Below are positions 33,026-44,827 of a stretch of DNA of 64,000 nt, one piece after another. This DNA is from Spirochaetota bacterium. GTDB taxonomy: Bacteria > Spirochaetota > UBA4802 > UBA5550. Positions within the stretch are counted from its first letter, which is position 1, and the number at the start of each line of letters is the position of its first letter. The DNA lies in NCBI GenBank assembly GCA_017999915.1, contig JAGNKX010000012.1, positions 1-64,000 on the forward strand, given 5' to 3'. The notes under the pieces are model-generated. The model was not told the origin of the DNA and searched no databases. It saw only the letters and a list, made by a program, of their open reading frames with translations. The position numbers and the translations under genes were made by a program.

Positions 33026-33322
33026 GACCCGGAGCGGGTCGTACAATTGTGCGAGGGGGTAAGGGAGGCTTCCCTTTCCCCCTCGCGCTCCCCCTATCCC
33101 CGGTCGCTCAGGCGCCGCGACGGGCTATCGGGTGAACTCGTCGAACCGACTTCGCCGGATTCGACTCAGACATCCACCCTTGTTAGGTTTGTCCGCCTTT
33201 CGGCGGACGTTTTGAGGTCTGGCTGGAAAGAGAATACGGATCTTTGCACATTTGACTTGTATTGTCATCGTACTGGCAAAGATGATTGCAATAAGGTCTT
33301 TTTCGACTTTCGCTCCGGAAGG
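33026..33322 (+). repeat. Structured 300-bp repeat, copy A
   Basis: About 300 bp, closely similar to 38812-39115. Shared blocks include ACAATTGTGCGAGG-like sequence, TCCCCGGTCGCTCAGGCGCC, GGTGAACTCGTCGA, a GTCCGCC...GGCGGAC hairpin and the tail TTTCGCTCCGGAAG. Several stems are conserved although their bases differ: GCGAGGGGG with CCCCCTCGC, and TCGAACCG with CGGATTCGA. This pattern suggests a selected structure, as RNA or single-stranded DNA. Confidence 0.75.
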
Positions 33323-38811: not shown

Positions 38812-39115
38812 GGGATTCGCCCCTGAGAGGGGCGTGCAATTGTGCGAGGGCAAGAGGGCTGCGCGCCCTCTCACCCTCGCGCTCCCTCTCTCCCCGGTCG
38901 CTCAGGCGCCGCGACGGGCTAGGGGGTGAACTCGTCGATTCGGCTTCGCCGAAATCGACTCGGGCATCCACCCCCTATTGGTGTGTCCGCCCTGCGGGCG
39001 GACGTTTTGATGCCTGGTTGGCGGGAGGTTAGTTGTTTGTGGGTATTTGTCTGTATATGACATTGTCATTGTGAAGACGATGGCAATAAAAGCTTTTTCG
39101 CCTTTCGCTCCGGAA
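38812..39115 (+). repeat. Structured 300-bp repeat, copy B
   Basis: Partner of 33026-33322 in the same orientation. Identical blocks include TCCCCGGTCGCTCAGGCGCC, GGTGAACTCGTCGA and TTTCGCTCCGGAAG. Stems match in place but differ in bases: TCGATTCGGC with GCCGAAATCGA here against TCGAACCG/CGGATTCGA in copy A, and GTCCGCC/GGGCGGAC with a different loop. The tail after the element again leads into GGA-loop hairpins. Confidence 0.75.
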
Positions 39116-39119
39116 GCGC

Positions 39120-39218
39120 GCCGGCTTCTTTTCGCCATCCGTGGCGAAGCCGGCATTGCGACATCCGTGTCGGGAACATCCTGGGCCATCCTCGCGACGC
39201 CGGACTTCCTGTCCGGCG
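39120..39218 (-). repeat. Three GGA-loop hairpins, first nested
   Basis: An outer GCCGGC stem (39120 with 39149-39154) encloses TTCGCCA/TGGCGAA with loop TCCG (39131-39148). CGACA/TGTCG with loop TCCG follows (39159-39172). CGCCGGAC/GTCCGGCG with loop TTCCT ends the set (39198-39218). All three read GGA in the loop on the minus strand. The last has a covarying counterpart at 40655-40675. Confidence 0.8.
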
Positions 39219-39529: not shown

Positions 39530-40633
39530 ATGAGAATATACGGTGAAAATAACGATTATACAATGACCGATATTCCATTCCAGGTCGAATACTTCAAACA
39601 TGAAGTTGCAACGAGCAGCTCTGATTTGAACATGCACGATTATATCATCAACAACCGGGAGAAAATATTTGGCCACTATCTTTACCTGCTCCATGAAGCG
39701 AGTTTGAGCGCCGAGAGCTCCGTTGATTTGATCGGATTTAATGACGATGGGGCGGTGTTCGTAATCGAGATCAAACGCGCCGGAGATTCAAGAAACAGGC
39801 AGGAGGTCATTTCCCAGATTGGCAAATACGCCATGGATTCCATATCCATAAAGGACATCCTGAAGGACGAGGAACTTTTCAATTCCCTGGTGAACGATCC
39901 CGGCCTCAAAAACAGGGAGATGCCCTCCGGGCTTATCAGCAAGATAATCAACAACATCAATGAGGGCCTGATGAACCTATTTCTCATAACCGAGGAGGCT
40001 ACCGATGAGGTGCTTGCGTCGAGCTATTACCTCTCATACGGCAGCCAGTTCCGCAAGATTGCCATTATAGAGCTGAAAAGGGTCAGGATCGGCGAGGAAA
40101 TGTTTTGCTTCATCAGAAATTACAATAAGCAAAGTATAGCCTCGTCGACGCGGAAGGAGAAATTCGATCTATATCAGAAGCTCGATCTTATCGAAGACCA
40201 GAGAATAAAAAGTGAAATCACGCGCCAAATAGACCGGTGGTTCGAGTGGGGCTGGGAGGTTAACCCACGCACTGTTTCAACACCGGAATATATTACGTTT
40301 GAATGGAAGACCGACCAGAGTATTTGGGCCTATTTATATATTAAAAATAAAAAACAGAAAAATACATCGGATGAATACAGAAAGAATAGTATTGTCATTC
40401 ATACGAGAAAGGCTTGGGAATCGGATTACTCGGAAATAATCGAATGGTTTAACACACTGAGGAATACATATAAGGTGTATGTCCGGAATCCGGGAAAGTC
40501 AGGGGATTATCTATATTATTGTATCGATATCTCGGATTATGATTCGGATGAGATGGTTATTGTGTTTGAGAAAATGAATAAAGTGGCAGAAATAAGTAAG
40601 AAGAATCATAGAAACATGCGGAACATCATCTGA
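39530..40633 (+). CDS. PD-(D/E)XK nuclease-like protein
   Basis: A 367-residue protein of unrecognised family. Residues 60-105 contain a plausible restriction-endonuclease-like core: Asp66 in SVDLIGF, Glu80-Ile-Lys82 in VFVIEIKRAG, and a following QIGKY helix, the arrangement seen in PD-(D/E)XK and NucS-like enzymes. The C-terminal half (about 220-367) is rich in Trp, Tyr and Lys and unassigned. It is a lone gene between hairpin-rich spacers and an A+T-rich beta-lactamase. Possible roles are DNA repair or defence, but no methylase, helicase or toxin partner is present. Base use is less G+C-rich than the window average. Confidence 0.6.
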   Translation: MRIYGENNDYTMTDIPFQVEYFKHEVATSSSDLNMHDYIINNREKIFGHYLYLLHEASLSAESSVDLIGFNDDGAVFVIEIKRAGDSRNRQEVISQIGKYAMDSISIKDILKDEELFNSLVNDPGLKNREMPSGLISKIINNINEGLMNLFLITEEATDEVLASSYYLSYGSQFRKIAIIELKRVRIGEEMFCFIRNYNKQSIASSTRKEKFDLYQKLDLIEDQRIKSEITRQIDRWFEWGWEVNPRTVSTPEYITFEWKTDQSIWAYLYIKNKKQKNTSDEYRKNSIVIHTRKAWESDYSEIIEWFNTLRNTYKVYVRNPGKSGDYLYYCIDISDYDSDEMVIVFEKMNKVAEISKKNHRNMRNII

Positions 40634-40654: not shown

Positions 40655-40745
40655 CGCCGAATAGGAAGTTCGGCGTCGCGAGGATGCCCCAGGATGGGGC
40701 TTCCGGAGCGAAAGGCGAAATGCTCTTATGGCCATCGCCATAATG
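40655..40745. repeat. Hairpins plus truncated tail of the structured repeat
   Basis: CGCCGAA/TTCGGCG around AGGAA (40655-40675) and GCCCC/GGGGC around AGGAT (40686-40700) read GGA on the plus strand. From 40701 to about 40745 the minus strand repeats the tail of the 300-bp element, including TTTCGCTCCGGAAG and the CGATGGC-type block. So an inverted, truncated third copy sits here. Confidence 0.75.
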
Positions 40746-40810: not shown

Positions 40811-40870
40811 CCCCTCGCAAAAAAGCCGACCGTCTCACGGTCAAGCCCTGCCCTGGACAGGGGCAAAATT
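40811..40870. repeat. CCCCTCGCAAAAAAGC double-hairpin repeat, copy 1
   Basis: CCCCTCGCAAAAAAGC is followed by GACCGT/ACGGTC and GCCCTG/CAGGGGC hairpins and an A-rich end. A second copy at 44393-44454 keeps the layout with changed stem bases. It lies just upstream of the beta-lactamase promoter region. Confidence 0.7.
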
Positions 40871-40930: not shown

Positions 40931-41704
40931 GTGAAGACTAAAATAATATGTATCGTATGTATTCTATCCACACCATTCCTCTGGGGAAAAAATAGAAATG
41001 ATCTATTTTTAAAAAACTACATGGAAGGAAATCATCTTAATGGCACGGTCGTAATTGAATCATTAAAAACAAAAGAAAGACATGTATATAATGAAAAACG
41101 ATCAAAAGAATATTTTTTGCCCGCATCGACGTTTAAAATAGTCAATACGCTGATTGCCCTGTGGGAAAAGGTTATACATGATGAAACTGAAATAATAAAA
41201 TGGGATGGCAAGGACAAGGGGCGCGTGGAATGGAATAAGGACCAGAATTTGAAAAGCGCCTTTGCCGTGAGTTGCGTATGGTTTTACCAGGAATTGGCAA
41301 AGAGAATTGGAAATGACAGGTACCTGATATATTTAAGGAAAATCAGATATGGAAATATGAAAACCGGAAGTGGAGTTGATTCATTCTGGCTCAATGGTGA
41401 TCTGCGAATATCCGCCGTTGGGCAAATCAGCGTTCTTAAAGACATTTATGCGAAAAACGGCCCCTTTGATGGCAGTGCCTATGAAATTCTTAAATCAATA
41501 ATGATTGTTGATAAAACTGATGATTATATTGTGCGGGCCAAAACGGGTGCTGCTTCAAATGTCGGATGGTATGTGGGTTATCTGGAAACCGGGGATGATG
41601 TTTATTTTTTTTCATGCAATATTGATATCGCTGATAACGAACAATTGAAATATCGTAAGGAAATAATATACACGGCTTTTAAAGAACTGGGAATAATCAA
41701 ATAG
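40931..41704 (+). CDS. Class D (OXA-type) beta-lactamase
   Basis: A 257-residue serine beta-lactamase of class D. Its motifs are in order and spacing: S66-T-F-K69 (nucleophile serine and carboxylatable lysine), S114-C-V, Y140-G-N and K204-T-G, plus WDGKDKGR and FWLNGDLRIS typical of OXA enzymes. A short signal peptide (about 1-18) should direct it to the periplasm, where it would hydrolyse penicillins and possibly other beta-lactams. It starts with GTG after GGAG. Its DNA is clearly A+T-rich against the rest of the window, suggesting transfer. No regulatory gene adjoins it. Spectrum cannot be predicted. Confidence 0.93.
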   Translation: MKTKIICIVCILSTPFLWGKNRNDLFLKNYMEGNHLNGTVVIESLKTKERHVYNEKRSKEYFLPASTFKIVNTLIALWEKVIHDETEIIKWDGKDKGRVEWNKDQNLKSAFAVSCVWFYQELAKRIGNDRYLIYLRKIRYGNMKTGSGVDSFWLNGDLRISAVGQISVLKDIYAKNGPFDGSAYEILKSIMIVDKTDDYIVRAKTGAASNVGWYVGYLETGDDVYFFSCNIDIADNEQLKYRKEIIYTAFKELGIIK

Positions 41705-43586: not shown

Positions 43587-43916
43587 TCAGTGCGAAACGC
43601 TTTTTGAGAATAAATTGATCACTATTATTCCGGTTATAATTAAGATGATCCCGGCAATAGCCGGAATGTCAAGGCCCTGCCTGTAATAAAAATACCCGAT
43701 GATCGATATCAAGGTGATCCCCGCGCCGGACCATATGGCATAGGCTATCCCTATGGGAACATCTTTCAGCGTCAGCGATAAGAAAAAGAAAGCGATCCCA
43801 TAGCCGATGATCACGACGATCGACGGCGCCAGTTTTGTGAAACCTTCCGATGCCTTTAACGCCGATGTGGCGGTAACTTCAGCGACTATGGCGATTGATA
43901 AAAGGAGCCATTTCAT
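43587..43916 (-). CDS. Small multidrug resistance (SMR/EmrE-type) transporter
   Basis: A 109-residue protein with four membrane helices. The essential acidic residue is Glu13 in [13 protein letters not shown], equivalent to Glu14 of EmrE, and the [17 protein letters not shown] segment is typical of the QacC/EmrE branch. These dimers exchange protons for cationic toxic compounds across the inner membrane. The ATG at 43916 lies seven bases after the stop of the upstream STAS gene, so the two are co-transcribed. Confidence 0.95.
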
Positions 43917-43923
43917 ATAAACA

Positions 43924-44223
43924 TTACTCCTCGAGGAGTTCTGATAGATTGGATAATCTGATAAAATTGATGATGTCATCATTGGCTTTTCTGATGATCA
44001 GCTTTTTACCCCTTTTGCTCTGAATTTTATAAAGGCTAATCAGGACTCCAATCCCCGCGGAATCCATATAATCTACGTTTGAGAAATCAAGATCCATAAT
44101 CTTGTCTTTGGTTTGGCTGATTTCAAATAATGTATTCTTGAAGTCCTTGCTCGTGTAAAGATTTATTTCACCGATAAGGGTGATATAAATGACGTCATCA
44201 TCTTCGTTGATTTCAAATTCCAT
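43924..44223 (-). CDS. STAS-domain anti-sigma factor antagonist (paralogue 1)
   Basis: A 99-residue stand-alone STAS protein of the SpoIIAA/RsbV type. The phosphorylatable serine is Ser55 in [15 protein letters not shown], preceded by Asp54. In the unphosphorylated form such proteins bind anti-sigma kinases and free a sigma factor. No kinase or sigma gene is adjacent; instead it is followed by an SMR pump. It is a clear paralogue of the STAS gene at 44525 (both have the EDDD start and LISLYK-QSK-G-KL core), which diverges from it across a spacer holding a 50-bp palindrome. Confidence 0.93.
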
Positions 44224-44328: not shown

Positions 44329-44347
44329 GCCGGCCAGGAGGGCCGGC
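44329..44347 (+). repeat. GGA-loop hairpin
   Basis: GCCGGCC pairs with GGCCGGC around AGGAG. It matches hairpins at 42476 and 43481 and ends four bases before the 50-bp palindrome. Confidence 0.8.
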
Positions 44348-44350
44348 ATC

Positions 44351-44400
44351 GCGAGGGGACCATAGCCCCGGGTTTAAACCCGGGGCTATGGTCCCCTCGC
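44351..44400. repeat. Perfect 50-bp palindrome
   Basis: Bases 44351-44375 are exactly complementary to 44376-44400, with no spacer and no mismatch; the centre is GGGTTTAAACCC and the ends are GCGAGGGG and CCCCTCGC. The right end overlaps a repeat that also occurs at 40811 without the left arm, so the palindrome may have formed by inverted duplication of that repeat's edge. Such long perfect palindromes are usually unstable in bacteria. Confidence 0.95.
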
Positions 44401-44454
44401 AAAAAAGCAGACCGACTCACGGTCAATTGCCCGCCCCGGCCCCGGGGCAAATAA
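44393..44454. repeat. CCCCTCGCAAAAAAGC double-hairpin repeat, copy 2
   Basis: It shares CCCCTCGCAAAAAAGC, a GACCG/CGGTC hairpin and a second G+C-rich hairpin (TTGCCC with GGGGCAA) with 40811-40870. The stems differ from copy 1 but remain paired. Confidence 0.7.
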
Positions 44455-44524: not shown

Positions 44525-44827
44525 ATGTCCATACAAGTAAAGGAAGATGACGATGTCGTTACCATCACGGTGCAAGGAGATATTGAAATTTATACGCTGG
44601 ATGAGTTTAAGAAAGTATTGATCAGCGTCGGCCATTCATCCGATAAAAACATTGTTATTGACGTCTCAAAGGTTAATTTTATCGATTCTTCCGGGATCGG
44701 CGCCCTGATAAGCCTGTACAAGCTCCAGAGCAAGAAGGGCAGGAAGCTGACCATCAGGAACGCAAGCCCCGATATACAGAATATCCTCAAGTTGACCACC
44801 CTGTCCGATGTCCTTGGATTGGAATAG
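44525..44827 (+). CDS. STAS-domain anti-sigma factor antagonist (paralogue 2)
   Basis: A 100-residue STAS protein with Ser55 in VNFIDSSGIGALISL as the expected phosphorylation site. It aligns end to end with the divergent STAS protein at 43924, keeping the EDDD stretch at residues 7-10 and the LYKLQSKKGRKLTIR core. It would act as an anti-sigma antagonist; its kinase and phosphatase are not in the window. A GGAG site precedes the ATG. The gene is followed by a 218-bp spacer and a methyltransferase gene. Confidence 0.93.
   Translation: MSIQVKEDDDVVTITVQGDIEIYTLDEFKKVLISVGHSSDKNIVIDVSKVNFIDSSGIGALISLYKLQSKKGRKLTIRNASPDIQNILKLTTLSDVLGLE

Follow-up and report, generated by a model that had tools for sequence, protein, structure and literature searches.

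The window analysed here, a 64,000-nucleotide stretch of a contig from a Spirochaetota bacterium (positions 1 to 64,000 of JAGNKX010000012.1, assembly GCA_017999915.1), contains two divergently oriented STAS-domain genes, at 43924–44223 on the minus strand and at 44525–44827 on the plus strand. Midway between them, ~127 bp from the start of the left gene and ~124 bp from that of the right gene, lies a palindrome at 44351–44400. A sequence-only reading of this DNA had described a perfect, spacer-free 50-bp palindrome between divergent STAS paralogues and, indeed, positions 44351–44375 are the exact reverse complement of positions 44376–44400 (25 + 25 nt, spacer of 0 nt), and the two proteins are paralogues that share 48% identity and each match the Pfam STAS family. 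The chance expectation of such a palindrome in 64 kb is ~64000 × 4^-25 = 6e-11. Among the spacer-free palindromes of the window it is alone in having arms of at least 11 nt, and the region folds as single-stranded DNA with z = −10.7. A separate small hairpin (GCCGGCCAGGAGGGCCGGC) is located to the left of the palindrome, at 44329–44347. We found no syntenic counterpart of the divergent STAS pair in the relatives looked at. We note that just to the left of this pair (43587–43919) is a gene for a small membrane protein that, by eye only, is SMR/EmrE-efflux-like, and that an open reading frame at 40931–41704, in which an STFK motif is followed by a KTG motif, is by eye only class D beta-lactamase-like. 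We also note inverted repeats (22 nt perfect and 42 nt at 90%) at 39096–39218 and 40655–40720, ~1.5 kb apart, which flank a 367-aa open reading frame (39530–40633) and are possibly another repeat pair or an element boundary.

The palindrome is nested, with a tip at 44360–44391 (CCATAGCCCCGGGTTTAAACCCGGGGCTATGG) between a left outer stem at 44351–44359 (GCGAGGGGA) and a right outer stem at 44392–44400 (TCCCCTCGC). The 9-bp outer stem belongs to a hairpin repeat of ~150 bp that is unrelated to the tip and consists of a left module (AGCCYGTCGCGGCGCCTGAGCGACCGG...GGAGC), a hairpin of 35–38 nt (GCGAGG...CCTCGC), and a right module (AAAAATGCCGACCGTCTCACGGTC...CCCTGCCCTGG). At the window site the right module (AAAAAAGCAGACCGACTCACGGTC...CCCCGGCCCCGGGGC) follows the palindrome at 44401–44448 and contains a terminator-like minus-strand hairpin at 44424–44410; the usual left module is missing from this copy. 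We aligned 12 full copies of the GCGAGG repeat that carry no tip, two of which are in the window on the minus strand (33051–33086 and 38844–38880) and are intact, making them candidate unoccupied targets. In eight composite copies, by contrast, the hairpin has the identical 32 bp of CCATAGCCCCGGGTTTAAACCCGGGGCTATGG in place of its inner stem and loop. The apex of the host hairpin is of at least three unrelated types. The repeat at 40811 to which the sequence-only reading had drawn attention is genuine, matching over 34 nt at 94% and on to 40875 at 82%, and corresponds to the outer right stem and the sequence beyond it, the palindrome core being unmatched; specifically, the plus-strand segment 40811–40875 is the right half of a GCGAGG repeat, without the tip and without the left stem. 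The suggestion that the palindrome might mark a recombination junction is correct once modified: its arms do span the boundary of two repeat families, the tip occupying the apex of a hairpin from the GCGAGG repeat.

The tip is a member of a dispersed family. Pattern searches of the genome from which the window comes (G000; 5.46 Mb in 29 contigs) identified 13 exact copies of the inner 26 bp (TAGCCCCGGGTTTAAACCCGGGGCTA, at 44363–44388 in the window), on several contigs, together with five further copies at up to three mismatches, whereas the reversed-pattern control returned 0. Some copies of the 26-bp tip are found on stems unrelated to the GCGAGG repeat. Among 393 genomes of the phylum that were searched, the 20-bp centre of the tip is present in three, with 15 copies in G000, two in a sister species (G003), and one in a distant relative; no copy of the 26-bp tip was found in the viral contigs searched. 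All six species of the genus have palindromes of this kind that are built around other centres and follow the consensus arm (S)CCYTCTG-N-TAG-SSSSGGG-YTT. A single related palindrome (CCTGTAGCCCCGGGTTTAAACCCGGGGTTACAGG) occurs at locus L263 of genome G095, from another family of the same phylum, so the palindrome family may predate the genus. It had been remarked that long spacer-free palindromes are usually removed by SbcCD-type nucleases. Escherichia coli tolerates perfect palindromes poorly from roughly 150 bp, a length well above 50 bp, and many palindromes of 40–50 bp persist in this genome, so that the remark carries little weight here. One copy (L009 ~1513; G000:C1:757787) comes immediately after a pair of tRNA genes, by eye those for Ile and Ala, and may lie in an rRNA operon spacer. 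At L040 9593–9700 (G000:C1:794593–794700), beside tnpA, the palindrome unit CCAGGGGTTTAAATCCGGGG is present in tandem, and at C22:44 the unit TTAGCCCCG is likewise repeated, which suggests slippage at these hairpins.

Palindromes of this kind are associated with genes for IS200-class transposases. G000 contains six Y1 transposase genes, two of which (C1:794230 and C24:45258, 50% identical) belong to the IS200-class group, and each of these two lies between two such palindromes. G003 and G005 each also have one gene that is flanked on both sides, and a second tnpA in G005 has a palindrome at its 3′ side and another ~0.6 kb upstream; spacer-free palindromes of 30–50 bp adjoin all five IS200-class tnpA loci found in the genus and bracket four of them. 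The five TnpA proteins (47–58% identical to the C1 protein) contain HUH and Y---Q motifs, the C1 protein matches PF01797 and the IS200/IS605 equivalog NF033573, and a profile of the five matches solved transposases of the IS200 type, ISHp608 among them. Among database relatives of the transposase, those with names come from Spirochaetes metagenome assemblies. The stop codon of the C1 tnpA gene lies inside its right palindrome, the 22-bp centre of which is that of the window copy, and the C24 element of G000 and the C47 element of G003 both measure 518 bp from palindrome to palindrome in different flanks. Such palindrome pairs are absent from ~33 TnpA loci of other phyla that are more distant, among which L198 has one single 40-bp palindrome. 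Of the four other Y1 genes of G000, three (L026–L028) are without palindromes of this kind, and the pair found at the fourth (L029) is unrelated. These two L029 palindromes, of 57 and 49 bp (1432–1488 and 1633–1681; G000:C6 ~195.76–196.01 kb), have a 1-nt centre; one is next to a third Y1 transposase-like gene and the other is inside it. They share a tip (GGACAGAACANTGTTCTGTCC) that has only these two copies in the genome and differ in their outer arms, resembling in an unrelated palindrome the tip and stem behaviour described above.

The arms of these palindromes match within a copy far better than they match between copies. In 31 palindromes with arms of at least 14 nt, arms diverge by 35% between copies, yet only 2 of 674 positions are mismatched within copies, a count partly favoured because the arm ends were defined by matching. 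A fairer test, at positions 9–20 of copies selected only on the core, gave 84% matching within a copy and 47% between copies. Orthologous sites show different species carrying different tips: at the site following a ThDP-enzyme gene, G000, G003, G005, and G004 each have a palindrome and each a different sequence, and at the site following proS (both gene names by eye) the stems of G000 and G003 are related, with changes on both arms and a decayed centre in G003. Symmetry is not an automatic product of insertion, since some copies (C2:285, G004:C114, and G002:C56) have only one full arm and the flanks of C3:130 are non-palindromic.

To what extent the tip and its host share a history can be judged from the composites. 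The composite tips are 100% identical, whereas mean flank identity is 0.52 for the eight composites (a value lowered somewhat by two composites, the window copy included, that are without a recognisable left module) and 0.62 for the 12 tipless copies; seven of the eight composites are closest in their flanks to a tipless copy. Taken together, an identical tip, diverged flanks, and tipless nearest relatives indicate that the tip probably entered several diverged hairpins separately. When five single-site copies and one composite are compared, identity is 100% at arm positions 1–13 and 31% at positions 14–20 (20–47% from position 14); selection for identity applied to the first 13 positions and not to the sharp fall from position 14. 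Despite this low identity between copies, each copy remains symmetric at positions 14–20. Read most simply, these sequence comparisons point to a recent arrival of the tip, on more than one occasion, in hairpins that had already diverged, an alternative being the exchange of the tip among hairpins by gene conversion. Plain insertion does not account for the replacement of part of the host hairpin. Comparison of four sites (C6:29, C7:106, C22:44, and G003:C70) with relatives gave no clean pair of empty and occupied orthologues, because the relatives carry a different hairpin or diverged intergenic DNA; neither the window site nor any individual insertion yielded an exact pair, and a target tetranucleotide could not be defined. 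The outer arms of some single-site copies resemble the outer arm of the family (CCTCTGNTAG), so that a single old element could comprise both stem and tip at those sites.

We think it reasonably probable that the observed repeat family, its nesting and association with tnpA, the sharp boundary between tip and stem, the symmetry within copies, and the divergence of the host flanks reflect an IS200/REP-like palindromic unit that is placed in hairpin apices and whose arms are kept matched by template switching. The inner 26–32 bp would be a solitary copy of the unit that also forms the ends of the IS200-class elements, which have the order palindrome, tnpA, palindrome. IS200/IS605 transposases recognise hairpins on single-stranded DNA, and by analogy the Y1/HUH TnpA may mobilise the unit in trans by recognising its hairpin in that form. 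The unit would have landed in the apex of a pre-existing GCGAGG...CCTCGC hairpin, with ~18 nt of inner stem and loop replaced; since self-complementarity holds for the tip and for the host stem alike, the product would be one long perfect palindrome. Replication through the hairpin may then switch template and copy one arm onto the other, so that the arms remain matched while their sequence drifts, as in the template switching reported to create and maintain perfect stems (PMC8794818). A more general proposal, which we put forward tentatively and hold to be less likely than the foregoing, is hairpin-apex exchange, in which hairpins that already exist, whatever their sequence, receive a spreading palindromic tip in their apices in place of the inner stem and loop, such that tips become homogenised within a species and the stems below them stay site-specific.

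The same composites could instead descend from a single event, in which the tip entered the GCGAGG repeat once and the composite then spread, tipless copies representing either the ancestral state or a loss of the tip, and outer stems diverging symmetrically by template switching with no repeated targeting of apices. The junction is indeed at the same place in all eight composites, and the symmetric changes between composites (GGGGA, GGGGG, and GGAGG) are those expected from copying of one arm onto the other. We regard a single event as unlikely, however, given a tip that is 100% identical in eight copies with flanks of only ~52% identity, seven of which are closer to a tipless copy, and given the presence of the same 26-bp tip on unrelated stems.

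Still less probable, in our estimation, is that the hairpins are kept for a function in RNA, such as 3′-end stabilisation or termination, and that the symmetric changes are compensatory mutations under selection. In favour of such a function, several copies overlap a stop codon or come immediately after one, or lie after a tRNA gene; hairpins are kept with changed sequence at orthologous sites; and the host repeat has a terminator-like hairpin on its minus strand. G-T or mismatched intermediates are, however, almost absent from the tip family, whereas the host hairpins contain 11 G-T and 5 other non-pairs in 180. At the window site, moreover, no T-run follows the stem and the palindrome lies between divergent genes rather than at a 3′ end, and selection on RNA does not account for an identical tip on unrelated stems. 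The sequence-only reading had raised a recent inverted duplication and an assembly artefact. That the palindrome is such an artefact, or a recent inverted duplication of flanking DNA by fold-back synthesis, is highly improbable and as a general explanation is refuted, for although the arms outside the tip vary by site and yet match exactly within a site, the outer stem here comes from a repeat family with 12 tipless GCGAGG hairpins, the half copies and the non-palindromic flanks of C3:130 show that duplication is not automatic, and the family is dispersed over many contigs and in six species; target-site fold-back as the source of the outer arms was dropped in view of the tipless host hairpins and the half copies.

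Several established identities were also considered and rejected. The palindrome is not an intrinsic terminator, as it is not called as one and the sequence after the stem (AAAAAAGC on the plus strand, GATGCCGG on the minus strand) has no T-run. Matches to Rfam families are sub-threshold hairpin matches only (e.g. mir-607, 37.6 against a gathering threshold of 94). The unit is uninterrupted and without a core, and no consistent direct duplication is present in the flanks viewed, which is unlike a MITE. Bases at the tip edge vary (GTAG, CTAG, ATAG, TTAG, and TTCG) in a unit that is symmetric and has no spacer, unlike a classical GTAG REP. The adjacent genes are IS200-class, not RAYT (TnpA-REP), which sets the arrangement apart from a REPtron.

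The closest precedents are the ends of IS200/IS605 elements and the PATEs (palindrome-associated transposable elements) of Haloquadratum, which are transposase-free, have IS605-type palindromes, and accept insertions of small repeats into those palindromes (PMC3119063). Common to these and to the family described here are a Y1/HUH TnpA, palindromes at both ends of tnpA-containing elements, and solitary palindromic copies without a transposase; the presence of one repeat inside the palindrome of another is a further likeness to PATEs. The palindromes described here differ in being perfect and spacer-free at 30–50 bp, with solitary copies that are bare palindromes, and in that the palindrome itself is the guest within another hairpin repeat. 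As in REP/BIME and REPtron systems (PMC6006769, PMC2817692), short extragenic palindromes flank a single Y1 transposase gene and are scattered over the genome, but here a consistent GT[AG]G foot and an unpaired spacer are absent, the copy number is low, and the transposase is IS200-class (Y---Q) and not of the RAYT subclass. The arrangement thus works like a REPtron or PATE system and departs from classical GTAG REPs in two defining properties, the foot and the class of transposase. Insertion sequences are known to target REPs (PMC1525189), and the GTAG-23 REPs of T. roseum are inserted in CCGSSCC..GGSSCGG palindromes, many of these targets being unoccupied (PMC3733652). The T. roseum case resembles ours in having a REP-like unit inside target palindromes, with unoccupied targets in the same genome, and differs in its sequence and in the outcome, which in our case is a single perfect palindrome made of guest and host, with part of the host hairpin replaced. 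Because REP-like insertion in palindromes has already been published, the arrangement does not constitute a new category. Arms that remain identical while their sequence changes have precedents in the concertedly evolving perfect inverted repeats of nematomorph mitochondria (PMC6649704) and in the stems of PMC8794818, although those are local sequences and the family here is dispersed and linked to a transposase.

The palindrome between the two STAS genes is, then, a copy of a dispersed and probably mobile hairpin associated with a small transposase. The origin, target choice, and arm matching of REP-like palindromes are largely unsettled, and the family described here allows natural comparisons: within a single genome a host hairpin is present both with and without the tip, the same tip is found on stems that are unrelated to each other, and palindromes at orthologous sites have changed on both arms. 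These comparisons make two ideas directly testable, namely that hairpin apices may be targets of IS200-class transposases and that template switching may keep palindromes perfect.
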